From a bacterium (GTDB lineage Bacteria > UBP6 > UBA1177), in contig JAGCXM010000011.1 in NCBI GenBank assembly GCA_017961325.1, positions 62,001 to 126,000 on the forward strand: DNA of 64,000 nt. Reading direction: 5' to 3'. This document shows, in pieces, positions 3,716-62,036 of this stretch (within the stretch, counting starts at the first letter, position 1; each line of letters starts with the position of its first letter). Below the pieces are notes generated by a model. That model did not search any database. It was not told the DNA's origin and saw nothing but the letters and a program-made list of their open reading frames with translations. The translations under genes were made by a program, and so were the position numbers.

Positions 3716-6211
3716 ATGCAGAATGACGGAAAAATTGCGATTCTCGATGTGAGTTCTTATATTTTCAGGGCATTTCATGCGCTGCCGCCGATGTATTCGC
3801 CGAAAGGCGAACCGGTAAACGCGATATACGGCTTCATCAACATGTTTTTGAGGACTATATCGAAGTTCAAAGGTTTTGCGGCGGTCGCGGCGCTTGACAG
3901 CAAGACGGAGACTTTCAGGAAAAAGGCTTATCCAGAATATAAGGCCAACAGAAAGGAGGTCGATCCCGAGCTCAAATCGCAGTTCGAGCTGATCACGCCT
4001 ATGCTTGAGGCACTCAACATTCCGGTTTTCGCGTCCGACGGCTTCGAGGCTGATGACGTCATTGCCTCGATCGTAGCGAATAACCCCGGCAAAGAAATCA
4101 TCATAATCTCTTCCGACAAGGATCTGATGCAGCTTGTCGGAGGGAACGTCCTGATGTATGACAGCATGAAGGACAAAATCATTGATCCGGCGGCCGTGCA
4201 GGAAAAATACGGCGTTATGCCAAGTCAGATGCTCGATTTTCTCGCTCTTTTAGGCGACAGTTCCGACAATGTTCCGGGAATGCCGAAAGTCGGGCTTAAA
4301 ACCGCAGCGGAACTGCTCAACAAATACGGTTCGGCTGACAGCATCTATCAGAATCTTAGTGCTCTGAAACCCGCATTGCAAAAGGTTTTTACGGAAAATA
4401 AGGAGCAGTTTGAATTTTCAAAATTTCTGATCCGCCTCGATTCTTCAGTAAAACTGGAAGGCTGCCGGAAATGCTTTGATCCGTGGACGAATCCCGATAC
4501 TGAAAAAATCGTGAAACTCTGCTCCGATCTGGGTTTTGCGTCGATCCTGAAAAAAGTCGGAAGCGATTTCCCGGCAAATAGGGAACCGGCGCCCGAACCG
4601 AAAAAAACGGTTGAACTTCATGAAAAATGGGAGCCGGGCGAATTTGATGTAAAAAGTGGTGAAACCCTTTATGGAAGCACCTTTTACGGCAGTTTTTATG
4701 TCGCAAAAGACGGGAAATTCATGTCGCTTGAGATTGCAAACCTGCCTCAGGATTCGACGGTCTATTCTTTTGAAGTTAAAGAGTTCCTCGATGCGCCTTT
4801 TCCGAAGGGGATAAAATTCATCGACCTGCAGATCTATTATTTCTGTCACGACAGCGGCAGACACGGTTATTCGCCTGAAGATATAGCCGGGGCGCTGGGT
4901 CTAGGCGATGTCAGCAGAGAGTCTCCAGAGCGGTTTTTTGCATTTTTGGAAAAGCTCCGTGCGAAAATCGAAGAGAAACGTGAAGACAAGTCGTTCCTTC
5001 TTAACGGAATAGAGATGCCGCATCTCGAAGTAGTCAGGGCGATGGAGCAGAACGGAATAAAGGTCGATCTGAATGAAACTGGCAGGCTGAGAAGCGAGTT
5101 TTTAAGCAGAATCAATGATTTGACAAAGCAGATCTATGAGGCTGCAGGAACTGTTTTCAATCCCAATTCGCCGAAACAGCTTGCCGAGATTCTTTTTGAC
5201 AAACTTCAGCTCAAAGGCGGCAAAAAGACAAAAACCGGCTACAGCACAGGTCACGAGGTTCTTGAAAATGTCGCAGAGGAAAACGATCATCCGCTCCCCA
5301 AACTCATAATCGAGAACAGAAAATATTCCAAACTTGTCTCCACTTATCTTGAACCGATTGCTGCAAAGACCGCATCCGACGGCAGGCTGCACACTTCCTA
5401 CATCGTGACTTATGCCGCGACAGGCAGACTCGCGAGCAGGGAACCGAACCTGCAGAATATCCCGACCCGCACTGAGGACGGGCAGAAGATCCGAGGTCTT
5501 TTCGTTGCCGAAGAAGGGTTCAAGCTTCTCTCTCTCGATTATAGCCAGATTGAACTCAGAATTCTGGCGGCACTCAGCCAGGAGCCTGAATTTATTGATG
5601 CTTTCAAGCACGGCGAAGATATCCACAGACGCACCGCAGCCGCAATTTTCGGCACGATACCCGAATTCGTAGACAAAGAGATGCGCCGCAACGCAAAGGC
5701 GGTAAACTTCGGAATAATTTACGGAATGCAGGCATACAAACTTTCGGTCGATACCGGCGTTGACATCGCTTTCGCGAAAAAATATATCGACAACTACTTT
5801 GCGTGCTACCCGAAGATCAAGCAGTTCATCGACGACACTATCAGAAACGCCAGAGAAGAAGGTTTTGTCGAGACATATTTCGGACGCCGCCGCTATATTC
5901 CCGAAATCGCAAATTCAAATAAAAACATCGCGAAATCGGGTGAAAGAATGGCGGTAAACACCGTGATCCAGGGAACTGCGGCCGATGTGATAAAACAGGG
6001 AACGGTTGCAGTCTACAACATGCTGAAGGAAGTCTGCCCCGAAGCGCGGATCCTGCTTCAGATTCACGACGAACTCATAATCGAGTTTCCGGAAAAAAGA
6101 ACTGATATCGCAGAGTTGTGCGCCGAGAAAATGCGGGCAGCAGGCAGGGATTTTGAAGTGCCGCTCGATGTAAACTATTCCGTCGGCGACAACTGGGCTG
6201 ACTTGAAGTAG
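3716..6211 (+). CDS. polA: DNA polymerase I
   Basis: This is a family A polymerase for Okazaki fragment maturation and repair gap filling. Residues 1 to about 290 form the 5'-3' nuclease, with acidic motifs such as FEADDVIAS and SSDKDLMQLV. The middle region (about 290-440) occupies the 3'-5' exonuclease position but lacks the FDTET-type metal-binding motif, so proofreading is probably absent, as in Taq polymerase (832 aa; here 831). The polymerase domain has motif A DYSQIELR (D608), motif B with RRNAKAVNFGIIYG, and motif C QIHDELIIE (H784-D785). The start at 3716 has the strong TAGGAGG site. The next gene follows after 9 nt. Confidence 0.97.
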   Translation: MQNDGKIAILDVSSYIFRAFHALPPMYSPKGEPVNAIYGFINMFLRTISKFKGFAAVAALDSKTETFRKKAYPEYKANRKEVDPELKSQFELITPMLEALNIPVFASDGFEADDVIASIVANNPGKEIIIISSDKDLMQLVGGNVLMYDSMKDKIIDPAAVQEKYGVMPSQMLDFLALLGDSSDNVPGMPKVGLKTAAELLNKYGSADSIYQNLSALKPALQKVFTENKEQFEFSKFLIRLDSSVKLEGCRKCFDPWTNPDTEKIVKLCSDLGFASILKKVGSDFPANREPAPEPKKTVELHEKWEPGEFDVKSGETLYGSTFYGSFYVAKDGKFMSLEIANLPQDSTVYSFEVKEFLDAPFPKGIKFIDLQIYYFCHDSGRHGYSPEDIAGALGLGDVSRESPERFFAFLEKLRAKIEEKREDKSFLLNGIEMPHLEVVRAMEQNGIKVDLNETGRLRSEFLSRINDLTKQIYEAAGTVFNPNSPKQLAEILFDKLQLKGGKKTKTGYSTGHEVLENVAEENDHPLPKLIIENRKYSKLVSTYLEPIAAKTASDGRLHTSYIVTYAATGRLASREPNLQNIPTRTEDGQKIRGLFVAEEGFKLLSLDYSQIELRILAALSQEPEFIDAFKHGEDIHRRTAAAIFGTIPEFVDKEMRRNAKAVNFGIIYGMQAYKLSVDTGVDIAFAKKYIDNYFACYPKIKQFIDDTIRNAREEGFVETYFGRRRYIPEIANSNKNIAKSGERMAVNTVIQGTAADVIKQGTVAVYNMLKEVCPEARILLQIHDELIIEFPEKRTDIAELCAEKMRAAGRDFEVPLDVNYSVGDNWADLK

Positions 6212-7621: not shown

Positions 7622-7653
7622 TTGCCTGTTTTTGATTTTTTATGGAGGATTTG

Positions 7654-9585
7654 ATGAAAAAATTACTTGTTTTTCTTGTTGTCATCGCTGTTTTGATGTC
7701 GTTTGCATGCAGCAAAAAGGAGGAAGTGCAGCCTCAAAAAGAAGCTGTTGCAAAGGAACCGGCTCAAAAAAATGAAATTTACAATGTCGAAATAGGAACG
7801 GCGGTTTTCCGCGGTCCTGAAGACGCACCTGTCACTATCATCAATTTTTCAGATTTCCAGTGCCCTTTTTCAAAACGGAGCGTCGATTACATGGATTCGG
7901 CTTTGAAACGCTATAACGGCAAAATAAGATATGTTTTCAAGCACTTCCCGTTAAGTTTCCACAAAATGGCTAAACCTGCATCCTTGGCGGCGATTGCGGC
8001 GCAGAATCAGGGCAAATTCTGGGAATATTACACAAAACTTTACAGTGACGTGAAAAATGTCACCGAAGAAAATCTTGTCGCATACGCGAAAGAACTCAAA
8101 CTTGATATGGATAAATTCAACGCCGACAGAGTTTCGCCGGAAACGGCGGCGAAGGTTCAGGCCGATATTACGCAGGGTTCTATTTTCGGAGTACGCGGAA
8201 CGCCGACGCTTTTCATAAACGGAGAAAGAATAGTAGGTGCAAATAACGCGAAAATGGAAGAAGTGATCGTCCGTCAGATTGCAGCAGGCGAACAGCTTAA
8301 AGCCAAAGGGATAAAGAATCCTTACGCCGAAATCGTTAAAAACGGAAAAAAGAAATTCATACCGCCGAAAAGAGAAGCTCCGGCAGTATCCACGGATGTC
8401 TACAAAGTCGAAATTCCGGCTCATGCTCCGGTCTGGGGTGCTGAAGACGCGCTTGTCACGATCGTCCTTTTCGACGACTTCGAATGCCCGTTCTGTTCAA
8501 GACTTTATGCAACTTACGAGCAGCTCAAAAAAGATTACGAAGGCAGGATAAGAATTGCTTTCGTAAACCTTCCGCTCGGTTTCCACAAAAAGGCCAAAGA
8601 TGCCGCATATGCAGGCGCAGCGGCGCAGAAACAGGGAAAGTTCTGGGAGGTCTACAGTTTCCTCTTCACAAAGCAGAAAGAGTGGAATCATGCCGAAAAC
8701 TTCAAGGAATGGCTTGAATCGCACAAAGCCGAACTTCCGGTAGACTGGGATCAGTTCAAAAAGGACATGGAAAGCAAGAACATCGAGAATCTTGTCGCCG
8801 AAGACGTCAAAACCGCGACGTCACTCGGCTTGCGCGGAACTCCGGCTTCCTTTATAAACGGCAGGTTCGTAAGCGGTGCGCTTCCGATAGATTCTTTCAA
8901 GAAAGTCATCGACGAAGAGCTCAAAAAAGCTGAAGGCAAGGGCTTGAAAGGCGGCGAACTTTACCGCGAAATCATCAAAGAGGGCAAACCGAGCATCGCG
9001 AAAAGCAACGGCAACAAAGGCGAAAAGGAAGATCCGAACAAAATTTATTCGATAAAACTGAGCGGAAAAGAGGCTGTCAAAGGCAGCAAAAATCCGAAAA
9101 TCACGATAATAGAATTTTCCGATTTCCAGTGCCCTTTCTGCAGCAAGGCTTTCAAGACGGTTGAAGATGTTGCGGGAAAATACAAAAACGATGTGAAAAT
9201 CGTTTACAAGAACTTTCCGCTCAGCTTTCACAAGGAGGCGAAACCGGCGGCTCTTTTCGCTCACGCGGTGAAAAATCTTTACGGTGATGAAAAATTCTTC
9301 CAGCTGGCATCGCTTCTTTACTCGAGACAGAATGATTGGAAAATAAATTCTGAAGAAAAATTCGCGGCTTATGCAAAAGAAATCGGCGCAGACTGGGAGA
9401 AGGTCAAAGCCGAAGCAGCAAAACCGGAAACGGAAGCGGCAGTTTCTGAAGATATCCGGGAGGCGGGAACCCACAATCTCCGCGGCGTTCCGGCATTTTT
9501 CGTAAACGGCAGAAAAGTCGGCGGCGCAAAACCTGCTGAATTTTTTGAATCAATGATAGAATCGATGCTCAAAGAACAAAAGTAA
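7654..9585 (+). CDS. Lipoprotein with three tandem DsbA/thioredoxin-like domains
   Basis: The start at 7654 follows GGAGG; an in-frame ATG at 7642 overlaps that site. The signal peptide ends at a Cys19 lipobox-like site (MSFAC). Three DsbA-type domains follow at about 210-residue spacing. Their active sites are CPFS (Cys70, second Cys replaced by Ser), CPFC (Cys278/281) and CPFC (Cys493/496). Each has the cis-Pro loop: RGTPTLFING, RGTPASFING and RGVPAFFVNG. The family oxidises, isomerises or reduces disulfides in extracytoplasmic proteins. Three fused domains in one lipoprotein are unusual. The first can form mixed disulfides but cannot resolve them in the usual way, hinting at a substrate-holding role. 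The gene appears monocistronic. Confidence 0.85.
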   Translation: MKKLLVFLVVIAVLMSFACSKKEEVQPQKEAVAKEPAQKNEIYNVEIGTAVFRGPEDAPVTIINFSDFQCPFSKRSVDYMDSALKRYNGKIRYVFKHFPLSFHKMAKPASLAAIAAQNQGKFWEYYTKLYSDVKNVTEENLVAYAKELKLDMDKFNADRVSPETAAKVQADITQGSIFGVRGTPTLFINGERIVGANNAKMEEVIVRQIAAGEQLKAKGIKNPYAEIVKNGKKKFIPPKREAPAVSTDVYKVEIPAHAPVWGAEDALVTIVLFDDFECPFCSRLYATYEQLKKDYEGRIRIAFVNLPLGFHKKAKDAAYAGAAAQKQGKFWEVYSFLFTKQKEWNHAENFKEWLESHKAELPVDWDQFKKDMESKNIENLVAEDVKTATSLGLRGTPASFINGRFVSGALPIDSFKKVIDEELKKAEGKGLKGGELYREIIKEGKPSIAKSNGNKGEKEDPNKIYSIKLSGKEAVKGSKNPKITIIEFSDFQCPFCSKAFKTVEDVAGKYKNDVKIVYKNFPLSFHKEAKPAALFAHAVKNLYGDEKFFQLASLLYSRQNDWKINSEEKFAAYAKEIGADWEKVKAEAAKPETEAAVSEDIREAGTHNLRGVPAFFVNGRKVGGAKPAEFFESMIESMLKEQK

Positions 9586-12338: not shown

Positions 12339-13448
12339 ATGAAAAAAATTTTCCTGTTTGTTTTGTTCGTTTCGCTTTTTTGCCTTGCCGGCTGCGGCGA
12401 TGACAAAAATATCTACGACGACAACGATTCTCCGAAACAAGACAGCGACAGCAAAAATGACGATGATGCCGCTACTCATCCGAATGACGACAGCGGCAAA
12501 AATGACGATGACACAGTTGTTCCGGATTCCGGTCAGGATAATACGGAAAACAATAACGATTCCGATGATACGGAAAACGACAGCGATCCAGGCGATACGG
12601 AAAACAACAATGATTCCGACGGCCAGAACGATAAGCAGCCGGACGATTTCTGGAGGACTTGCGAAGGAATTATTGCATGCTCAAAAAACTGTGCGTCAGA
12701 AGATATGAACTGTTTCAGCAGCTGCTACGGCAAGGGTTATGATGAAGAACAGTCCTACTACAGAGCTTGGCGGGATTGTTTTGACGAGAATTGTGCCGAA
12801 GACCAGACGGCGGAATGTTCGGCTGAGCATTGTGCGGAATGGGATGCGCTCTGCAATGTCGCCGAGGCTTTTGAATATGAGCTTAAAATTCCTGCTCCGT
12901 ACGGAAATGCAAGTTTTGCCGGACAATTCTCCTATATTTTAAAACATGTTCCGAATGTGAATACTCCGGAAAATCAAATCATCATGGACGGTTTCGTACA
13001 AGGAACAATTTCAAACACGATGATTACTCCTGCTGCCGGAACGATAGTTTCTTTTGCGAGAATGTTTAGTGACCCTGCCAAGGGAGAAATGGTTGAAGTT
13101 GTCCAGGTTCCCTACAATATCGTCTCTCAAGTTCCCGGCAATCCCGCCGTTCTGCTCAGAATGAAAACCGGCTCAGCAACAAAAGGAACCCGTACGGTAG
13201 GCGTGACTGAAGAAAGCGATGCGGAATTTATCGTTGTGGATATTGATGCCAAATACAATATCATGTGCTATCATGCTTTCGGAATCGGTACTTTCAGTAT
13301 AGATGAGGCGATAATGGAGGCCGGTTCTTCGGGCAAATTTAACTTTAGTGAAGGTTCGGTTGAACTTTTCTATCCGCAGAACATTCCGGAACTGGGCGGT
13401 GATGCACGCGAAATCCTCGGCGTTAAGGCTTGTTCATTGATTGATTGA
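12339..13448 (+). CDS. Cys-rich lipoprotein with Asp/Asn-rich linker
   Basis: The signal peptide ends in a clear lipobox LAGC (Cys19). Residues about 20-100 are a low-complexity Asp/Asn/Ser/Thr tether. A Cys-rich module follows (about 105-165), with spaced cysteines such as CEGIIACSKNC, CFSSC and CAEDQTAEC, probably disulfide bonded. The remaining 200 residues look beta-rich and match no family I know. It is probably exported and surface or outer-membrane anchored. The triple-DsbA lipoprotein nearby could act on such proteins, though that is inference. Spacing to its neighbours in the operon is 8 nt on each side. Confidence 0.75.
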   Translation: MKKIFLFVLFVSLFCLAGCGDDKNIYDDNDSPKQDSDSKNDDDAATHPNDDSGKNDDDTVVPDSGQDNTENNNDSDDTENDSDPGDTENNNDSDGQNDKQPDDFWRTCEGIIACSKNCASEDMNCFSSCYGKGYDEEQSYYRAWRDCFDENCAEDQTAECSAEHCAEWDALCNVAEAFEYELKIPAPYGNASFAGQFSYILKHVPNVNTPENQIIMDGFVQGTISNTMITPAAGTIVSFARMFSDPAKGEMVEVVQVPYNIVSQVPGNPAVLLRMKTGSATKGTRTVGVTEESDAEFIVVDIDAKYNIMCYHAFGIGTFSIDEAIMEAGSSGKFNFSEGSVELFYPQNIPELGGDAREILGVKACSLID

Positions 13449-25998: not shown

Positions 25999-26814
25999 AT
26001 GACAAAAAAACTTTCTTTGCTTATTTTTTGCGCGATTTTTTCAATGTTTTTCGTCATTTCGTGCAGCAGTGACGAAGACGAGGATCTGGTAGATACGGAA
26101 ACCGGAAATTCATCTGAAAACGGTGGAAACAACGGCGGTAACGGAACCGGCACCGGAACGGATACCGGCGATACGGCTGCGGATACAGGAACCGATACCA
26201 GCACAGACACCGGTTCAGACACGGGCGCAGATACAGGAACCGATACCGGAACAGACACGGGTACGGATACAGAAACCGATACCGGAACAGACACGGGTTC
26301 TGATACCGGTGCCGACACCGGAACAGATACCGGCGATACGGATGCAGATACGGGCACAGATACCGGTGACACAGGCTCGAATCCCGGCGATGACGGCAAT
26401 CTGAATACCGGCGACACAAGCGGAAATCAGGCACAATCGGGATCTGTCGGAGCTCCATGCACTTCAGACAGTCAGTGTACCCAGAGTTACGGCAGCGGAG
26501 ACAGCGGTCAGGATGCCATTTGTCTTTTTGAATCGTCAGACGGATTTCCGGGCGGATACTGCTCGTTTTTCGGTGACGGAACCGATTCTTCGGCTTGCAA
26601 CAGTACCGGTGAACTTTTCTATAATTTCGGAGGCGGCTGGGGAGGAAACGGTTTGTGTCTGCACAGATGTACAAAACCCTCGGACTGCAGAAAAGACTAC
26701 AGGTGTTCGACCAAAATCAATGCATGTCTGCCGGATTGCAATAAGAACGGATATGAGTGTTCTTACGGGGAATGCGACAAAACGGACGGTGTCTGCCTTA
26801 AAAGCGGTTATTAA
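25999..26814 (+). CDS. Lipoprotein with Thr-Asp-Gly repeat tether and Cys-rich head
   Basis: Lipobox VISC gives Cys22. Residues about 50-140 are a repetitive tether built from TGTD/DTGS/DTGA units. The C-terminal 120 residues hold at least 14 cysteines in an EGF- or dickkopf-like spacing (APCTSDSQCT, LHRCTKPSDC, RKDYRCSTKINAC, CNKNGYECSYGEC), probably all disulfide bonded. It is likely surface displayed. The stop overlaps the first in-frame pgk ATG, so a shared transcript with pgk is likely. Confidence 0.78.
   Translation: MTKKLSLLIFCAIFSMFFVISCSSDEDEDLVDTETGNSSENGGNNGGNGTGTGTDTGDTAADTGTDTSTDTGSDTGADTGTDTGTDTGTDTETDTGTDTGSDTGADTGTDTGDTDADTGTDTGDTGSNPGDDGNLNTGDTSGNQAQSGSVGAPCTSDSQCTQSYGSGDSGQDAICLFESSDGFPGGYCSFFGDGTDSSACNSTGELFYNFGGGWGGNGLCLHRCTKPSDCRKDYRCSTKINACLPDCNKNGYECSYGECDKTDGVCLKSGY
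26155..26385 (+). repeat. Imperfect hexamer-based tandem repeat encoding the Thr-Asp-Gly tether
   Basis: Repeated units around GATACCGG / GACACGGG with wobble changes run through the coding region. The period is a multiple of 3, so length changes would keep the frame. It is a coding minisatellite, not a CRISPR array. Confidence 0.8.
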
Positions 26815-61993: not shown

Positions 61994-62036
61994 TTTCCGA
62001 TTTTTTGCGCTTTAACAACTTTTTCAAGAGGTTTTT

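Follow-up and report, generated by a model that had tools for sequence, protein, structure and literature searches.

What does a DsbA-type domain do when its active site has a nucleophilic cysteine and no second one to pair with it? The question is posed by a gene in the 64,000-nucleotide stretch of DNA analysed here (positions 62,001 to 126,000 of contig JAGCXM010000011.1, assembly GCA_017961325.1; hereafter the window), whose product is a predicted lipoprotein with three DsbA-like domains and the active-site motifs CPFS, CPFC and CPFC. An earlier note on this DNA had read the protein as a relay or isomerase specialised for Cys-dense surface lipoproteins. That interpretation is supported in part: an isomerase role fits the evidence somewhat better than an oxidase role, while the redox partners, the gene neighbourhood and a Cys loss confined to domain 1 do not bear it out. 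Our analysis points to a strongly conserved, real feature, and to a DsbA-fold disulfide-exchange protein that is probably an isomerase.

Domain architecture and conservation of the monothiol site

The genomes compared numbered 15 for the genus of the source bacterium, 19 for its family and 25 for its order, the last including UBP6 genomes. Merging of loci fetched under two names reduced 40 frames to 25 distinct ones and to 24 real orthologs; a false minus-strand frame in L013 was left out, as was the gene of L013/L092, which has no domain 1 at a contig edge. The gene of L097, whose N-terminus is missing at a contig edge, has all three domains and was counted. The resulting 23 three-domain orthologs come from eight genera and three families of a single order; genome G002 (59% complete) gave no match to the window protein. 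Relatives at 75–83% identity are from metagenome assemblies, several of them from ruminant stomachs or guts.

Domain 1 carries CPFS in all 23 orthologs, with Ser73 invariant. The codon for this residue is TCA in 14 of them, TCC in five, and TCT and TCG in two each; since all four TCN codons are in use, silent sites have changed while Ser has been kept. The conservation of CPFS in other triple-DsbA proteins, which the earlier note had proposed to check, therefore extends to every three-domain ortholog of the order. The possibility, also raised there, that the Ser codon is a sequencing error was rejected, because all 23 distinct gene copies, which come from different assemblies, have Ser at this position. 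Read-through or selenocysteine incorporation at the domain 1 site was likewise rejected, as TCN Ser codons occur in all 23.

Domain 1 is also the most conserved part of the protein. Mean pairwise identity among the orthologs is 0.648 in domain 1, 0.569 in domain 2 and 0.531 in domain 3, and the invariant core columns number 40 of 147, 21 of 153 and 16 of 152, respectively. Domain 1 is the more alike in 233 of 253 ortholog pairs when compared with domain 2, and in 249 of 253 when compared with domain 3.

Across the 23 orthologs the nucleophilic Cys is kept in 69 of 69 domains, and the position of the second Cys is occupied by nothing but Cys or Ser. Replacement of the second Cys by Ser is confined to domain 1 in the window protein, as had been claimed; it is not so confined across the family, where it recurs in domain 2 of four orthologs (L016, L097, L100 and L103) and in domain 3 of one (L103). 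Nineteen orthologs retain CXXC in domain 2, and 22 do so in domain 3. The protein of L103, which lies on a long branch and comes from the one genome of family f2 (G019), has CPFS, CPHS and CPYS; that is, all of its sites are monothiol. The Ser codons of these later losses are TCT (domain 2 of L016, domain 3 of L103), AGT (domain 2 of L097 and L103) and AGC (domain 2 of L100). Parsimony on a quick tree with the long L103 branch requires at least two changes in domain 2, and because the sister sequences L016 and L097 differ in Ser codon, the losses may be separate events. To judge from the alignment, the second Cys is dispensable and the first is not.

The reading frame, the Pfam matches and the alignment all agree with the earlier description of three DsbA domains with CPFS, CPFC and CPFC sites and cis-Pro loops in one predicted lipoprotein. 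PF13462 (269.8 bits, cut-off 23.2) and PF01323 (188.3 bits, cut-off 25.6) each match in three stretches, which places the protein in the DsbA-like thioredoxin superfamily; the CXXC of the DsbA-like family is absent from domain 1 and present in domains 2 and 3 of the window protein, whose three domains share 36–43% pairwise identity. PF13462 is the best profile, and the PDI-type thioredoxin domain PF00085 reaches 22.2 bits, below its cut-off of 23.5. A monothiol glutaredoxin was considered and rejected: the motif is CPFS and not CGFS, and PF00462, at 33.3 bits for the whole protein (cut-off 22.9), passes in no single stretch and scores far below PF13462. The best NCBIfam match is NF041057, the Rcas_1661 family thioredoxin-like (seleno)lipoprotein, which scores 207.9 bits when its three stretches are summed (cut-off 190); in this respect the window gene differs, having no selenocysteine codon at any of its three active sites. 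In its own genome (2.35 megabases, 48 contigs, 97.9% complete) the protein matches only itself at E ≤ 0.001.

The start at ATG 7654 is supported by the ribosome-binding-like GGAGGA at 7644–7649; an alternative ATG at 7642 lies just 5′ of that sequence. The predicted lipobox, SFAC, has a residue at −3 that is not textbook, and Cys at the lipidation position is kept in at least 90% of the orthologs. Of the six cysteines of the window protein, one is this predicted lipidation residue, domain 1 contributes one, and domains 2 and 3 have two apiece.

The cis-Pro, located by alignment, is kept in all three domains of all 23 orthologs. In domains 1 and 2 it is preceded by Thr in every ortholog (23 of 23), and in domain 3 by Val in 19 of 23. 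DsbC has Thr at this position and Escherichia coli DsbA has Val, and the sequence pattern hints at a division of labour among the domains. Thr, however, seems also to be present in the DsbA proteins of Staphylococcus aureus and Wolbachia (mutant names T153V and T172V), so the residue is only a hint.

Structure prediction, proposed earlier as a check, gave a DsbA fold for domain 1 modelled alone with AlphaFold2 (predicted local distance difference test, pLDDT, 94.8; predicted template-modelling score, pTM, 0.89). The full-length model has a pLDDT of 88.1 and a pTM of 0.43, with low confidence at residues 16–38. The domain 1 model matches many DsbA-type structures at Z 15–22, consistent with its assignment to the DsbA fold, and its best solved matches are tied at Z 21–22: 3gyk, Caulobacter ScsC, BdbD, Wolbachia alpha-DsbA2 and Proteus ScsC. 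UGGT, a folding sensor with tandem thioredoxin-like domains that appeared among the Foldseek matches of the full model, was not used (root-mean-square deviation 10–26 Å, template-modelling score 0.23–0.29 by query length). The features of the gene are collected in Table 1.

Table 1. Coordinates, in the window, of the DsbA-like gene, its parts and two candidate clients
Feature	Position	Strand	Basis
Gene for three-domain DsbA-like predicted lipoprotein, 643 residues	7654..9585	+	Open for 643 codons plus stop; GGAGGA at 7644–7649; PF13462 ×3, PF01323 ×3
Signal peptide and predicted lipidation Cys19, residues 1–19	7654..7710	+	Hydrophobic N-terminus ending SFAC; C19 nearly invariant in orthologs
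Domain 1, monothiol DsbA-like, residues 40–226	7771..8331	+	AlphaFold2 alone, pLDDT 94.8, pTM 0.89; DsbA fold; 40/147 core columns invariant
Domain 1 active site CPFS, residues 70–73	7861..7872	+	TGC CCT TTT TCA; 23/23 orthologs
Domain 1 cis-Pro loop, Thr183-Pro184	8200..8205	+	Thr and Pro both invariant, 23/23
Domain 2, CPFC, residues 250–426	8401..8931	+	Pfam stretch; high-confidence part of full-length model
Domain 2 active site CPFC, residues 278–281	8485..8496	+	Nucleophile C278 in 23/23; second Cys to Ser in 4/23
Domain 3, CPFC, residues 466–643	9049..9582	+	Pfam stretch; high-confidence in full model; part covered by most full-model fold matches
Domain 3 active site CPFC, residues 493–496	9130..9141	+	Nucleophile C493 in 23/23; second Cys to Ser in 1/23
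Candidate client, Cys-rich predicted lipoprotein, 12 mature Cys	12339..13448	+	Matches in 25/25 genomes of the order
Candidate client, Cys-rich predicted lipoprotein, 14 mature Cys	25999..26814	+	Putative client

Redox partners and Cys-rich lipoproteins

A search for DsbB or DsbD partners, as the earlier note had suggested, yielded none for this protein. Profile searches for DsbB and VKOR were negative in 25 of 25 genomes of the order, with 6 and 3 of 14 control genomes positive, respectively. DsbD_TM and DsbD_2, the DsbD/CcdA profiles, match 7 and 8 of the 25 genomes and none of the 15 of the genus itself. These were searches of draft metagenome assemblies, in which a very divergent partner could escape. 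The cytochrome bd profile is also negative in all 25 genomes (10 of 14 controls positive). Given its habitat and the lack of a cytochrome bd match, the source bacterium is presumed to be an obligate anaerobe.

Seven genomes chosen by hand from outside the order, namely three of family f4, G055, G035 and two Nannocystis, all have VKOR, and six of them have tandem DsbA proteins or belong to family f4; DsbB was found in none of the seven. Redoxin-family matches occur at four places in the source genome, of which three are TlpA-like and the fourth resembles a peroxiredoxin. The TlpA-like proteins (L216, 730–1419; L218, 676–1200; L217, 572–1054) carry CEPC or CGAC motifs and either a signal or a membrane anchor, and are present although the DsbD/CcdA profiles match none in the genus.

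The exported proteins that such a protein might serve were surveyed in 747,716 bases of the same genome, namely the window and 38 further stretches (L122–L141 and L192–L209), which amount to about a third of the genome. A simple gene finder and a lipobox pattern gave 508 genes of at least 150 residues. The 59 predicted lipoproteins among them average 4.03% Cys in the mature part, and 32 of the 59 reach at least 3%; cytoplasmic (n = 276), membrane (n = 103) and other secreted proteins (n = 70) have 1.42%, 1.33% and 1.42%, respectively. Even Cys counts in exported proteins are read as a sign of disulfides in passages of PMC12453122. Among the predicted lipoproteins with at least six Cys, the count is even in 29 of 37 (p = 0.00075), and in 17 of 22 when one member is taken per similarity cluster (p = 0.017). 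At the same threshold, even counts are found in 51 of 85 cytoplasmic (p = 0.08), 21 of 41 membrane and 13 of 22 other secreted proteins. Cys-rich lipoproteins, of the kind to which the earlier note pointed, occur across the whole of this sampled third, and even Cys counts are in excess among them. In G019, whose DsbA is all-monothiol, six of six lipoproteins with at least six Cys have an even count, in a small sample of nine lipoproteins; the sample of G026 (family f4), also small, holds four predicted lipoproteins.

The lipoproteins encoded at 12339 and 25999 are candidate clients of the DsbA-like protein. The former has an N-terminal tail rich in Asp, Asn and Ser, and many of the order's genomes contain more than one match to it.

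Isomerase, oxidase or other roles

Like the window protein, the trimeric ScsC proteins of Proteus mirabilis and Caulobacter and alpha-DsbA2 of Wolbachia have three DsbA-fold catalytic domains per molecule, and they match our models at Z 21–24 (domain 1 and full models taken together, the full-model matches falling mostly on domain 3). They differ in being assembled from three subunits, whereas the window protein has its three domains in one chain, is a predicted lipoprotein, has CPFS in its first domain, and has no DsbD/ScsB-type match in its own genus. Passages of PMC5524982 and PMC6450060 describe PmScsC and alpha-DsbA2 as isomerases in the trimeric state, in which removal of the oligomerising N-terminus abolishes isomerase activity and leaves dithiol oxidases, that of alpha-DsbA2 being a weak one. 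The closest solved sequence is DsbA/TsdA of Corynebacterium diphtheriae (4pwo, 7unn), which matches best in domain 2 of the window protein (E 1.2e-21) and whose Foldseek identity is 35–36% to the full model and 27% to domain 1; its chains of 245–250 residues comprise one domain, and its Cys-to-Ser form, 7uno (C129S), is engineered.

A CXXS-type site like that of domain 1 occurs naturally in the protein disulfide isomerases (PDIs) ERp44, AGR2, AGR3 and TMX5 of the endoplasmic reticulum. These belong to the eukaryotic PDI family and are not DsbA-like, so that the analogy is mechanistic only. Parts of PMC12384036 and PMC11443168 describe such natural CXXS PDIs as holdases that bind their clients for longer, and the CXXS forms of PDI are said to isomerise without oxidation or reduction (in part of PMC12384036). 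TMX5 is termed a natural trapping mutant in part of PMC11443168, and this is the closest idea to the substrate trap of the earlier note.

Three DsbA sites in one chain, the first of them monothiol, together with Cys-dense lipoproteins in the same genome, fit a tethered isomerase or holdase, and isomerase chemistry is indicated by the data on the ScsC and alpha-DsbA2 trimers and on the CXXS forms of PDI. Our preferred explanation, which we hold at even confidence, is that the protein would act on Cys-dense lipoproteins as a disulfide isomerase, in a single membrane-anchored chain that also assists their folding covalently. In this mechanism, Cys70 of domain 1 would attack a wrong disulfide, or take up a small-molecule disulfide, and form a mixed disulfide with the client. 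This mixed disulfide would be resolved by another Cys of the client and not by a second Cys of domain 1 itself; release by a client Cys would make a membrane partner unnecessary for that step. Domains 2 and 3, which have CXXC in most species, may introduce disulfides into the same client or take them away. Our simplest guess, drawn from comparison with other systems, is that the oxidising power would come from low-molecular-weight disulfides.

Several points weigh against this explanation. Most species keep both CXXC domains, which could function as an oxidase; to our knowledge, nothing is known to keep them reduced in the absence of DsbD, as an isomerase requires. At a pTM of 0.43 the relative placement of the domains is not predicted by the full-length model, and hence neither is the facing of the three sites on one cavity. 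The fold of domain 1 does not separate isomerase from oxidase, because BdbD, an oxidase, ties with ScsC, an isomerase. An even excess is absent from lipoproteins with one to five Cys (9 of 17), and the other secreted proteins show neither enrichment in Cys nor a significant even excess (1.42% and 13 of 22). The recurring neighbours of the gene that were identified are housekeeping genes with no redox gene among them, and so suggest no redox partner. Finally, the contrast in VKOR between the order and the genomes outside it amounts to one change in evolution, and the seven genomes with VKOR had been selected by hand.

The retained CXXC motifs (19 of 23 in domain 2, 22 of 23 in domain 3) are what a DsbA oxidase would be expected to keep, and the even-Cys lipoproteins require an oxidation step. 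On such a reading, which we consider rather unlikely, domains 2 and 3 would insert disulfides and regain their oxidised state from an unidentified partner or from small-molecule disulfides, with domain 1 docking unfolded clients. Recycling of the latter kind has a precedent in the DsbA of Clostridium botulinum, which passages of PMC12453122 report to work partner-free in E. coli, recycled by glutathione disulfide and not by cystine as tested. Docking alone, however, leaves the invariant nucleophile and the invariant Ser of domain 1 unexplained, the L103 protein has no CXXC in any domain, and the order has no DsbB or VKOR match. The negative DsbB, VKOR and cytochrome bd profiles would suit instead a monothiol oxidant in which Cys70 takes up a small-molecule disulfide and passes it on. 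The model for this would be SdbA of Streptococcus gordonii, which passages of PMC12453122 cite as a disulfide catalyst without a regenerating partner that can oxidise with one Cys of its CXXC; SdbA is, according to the same passages, an AhpC/TSA-family protein with a natural CXXC motif, unlike the DsbA-like window protein, and we regard such a role here as quite improbable.

A role in reduction or repair, for example of sulfenic acids or of mixed disulfides with small molecules, in an anaerobe exposed to oxygen appears more doubtful still. Monothiol thioredoxin-fold proteins reduce mixed disulfides with glutathione (in part of PMC2757866), and the anchored TlpA-like CXXC proteins of the genome could donate electrons, but none of the genus's 15 genomes has a DsbD/CcdA match that could supply them. 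That domain 1 is a metal or Fe-S site, by analogy with the CGFS glutaredoxins or with Caulobacter ScsC, which binds copper(I) according to part of PMC8900818, is very remote: domain 1 has one thiol and no other invariant Cys, and the recurring neighbours identified are not metal genes. We give hardly any credence to the idea that domain 1 is decaying after duplication. The lone loss of a second Cys would be a first step of decay, yet the pairwise comparisons given above and the number of invariant columns make domain 1 the most conserved of the three, which is not the behaviour we would expect of a decaying domain.

Taken further, the isomerase explanation leads to a proposal for the whole order, which we advance tentatively and regard as doubtful in its full extent. 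An order without detectable DsbB, VKOR or cytochrome bd would fold a Cys-dense lipoproteome oxidatively with no known re-oxidase in the membrane. Its DsbA lipoprotein, with three sites in a single chain, of which the first is obligately monothiol and in the one f2 genome all are monothiol, would draw disulfides from small molecules or misfolded clients and reshuffle them on the tethered client. If true, this would give anaerobes an isomerase-first disulfide route, and bacteria a counterpart of the CXXS holdase PDIs. Passages of PMC12453122 state that obligate anaerobes tend to exclude Cys from exported proteins, and that some anaerobes without a regenerating partner make fewer disulfide-bonded proteins. 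The Cys-rich lipoproteins of this presumed anaerobe run counter to that tendency, and as no known re-oxidase was found in it, they offer a test of how disulfides form where DsbB and VKOR are missing. The CXXS DsbA domain, natural and retained in three families, would also be an evolved, ready-made substrate trap, which could reveal the clients.

Tandem DsbA proteins outside the order and the gene neighbourhood

The statement in the earlier note that DsbA proteins normally have one domain needs correcting. A thioredoxin-fold atlas of 2009 (part of PMC2757866) had recorded DsbA-like bacterial sequences containing two or three DSBA domains, and arrays of two to four DsbA-like domains per chain are found here in Nannocystis, in G055 and in family f4 of the same phylum. 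Multi-domain DsbA proteins are therefore already known. Neither a natural CXXS DsbA domain nor this protein was found in the titles and abstract openings of the literature searched, which was largely open-access.

Outside the order, CxxC is present in 120 of 121 distinct domains with a readable motif in the loci compared, a non-random set assembled mostly from sequences similar to the window protein (four more domains have no readable motif). The lone exception is L043, a single-domain CPFS protein of 498 residues in a Bacteriovorax assembly (position 4044, plus strand). The arrays of family f4, Nannocystis and G055 resemble the window protein in having several DsbA-like domains per chain; they differ in that every motif read is CxxC, in that VKOR is present in the genome and, for f4 and Nannocystis, in their separate position in the tree. 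In a quick tree of 96 domains (midpoint root, many weak branches), the order's domains 1 fall into a single group, as do its domains 3 (support 99 for each), and domain 2 groups with support 96 without L103 and 69 with it. The Nannocystis and f4 arrays are placed apart from these. A single origin of all tandem DsbA proteins is thus unsupported, and tandem arrays seem to have arisen more than once. In Nannocystis (L017–L022), three adjoining genes encode two, three and two DsbA-like domains. The f4 proteins of L105 and L106 (G026 and G027) have four CPFC DsbA-like domains each, two of which are nearly identical in L106; VKOR is present in these genomes.

In the loci compared, no partner gene was found adjoining the window gene. 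Its neighbours were searched for at 23 other loci, with flanks of 5 kilobases on both sides at 14 of them and shorter flanks at the others, and 21 of the 23 gave the DsbA gene alone. The closeness of the DsbA gene to the Cys-rich lipoprotein gene at 12339, to which the earlier note had drawn attention, is not conserved: in other genomes the listed best match of the 12339 family lies on a different contig from the DsbA gene. As many of the genomes also contain several matches, closeness is not taken as evidence.

When 22 other loci were compared with one another, a gene for glutamine–tRNA ligase was found to adjoin the DsbA gene in nine loci of the genus itself. In other genera, an elongation factor G-like gene lies near the DsbA gene in six loci, a LeuD-like gene in four, and a phosphatidylglycerophosphatase A-like gene, which scores below the NCBIfam cut-off, in three. 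At L014 and L094, the other two of the 23 loci searched for the window gene's neighbours, a distant relative of the Cys-rich lipoprotein (26–27% identity) lies near the DsbA gene, and its Cys positions are partly aligned with those of the lipoprotein at 12339–13448.

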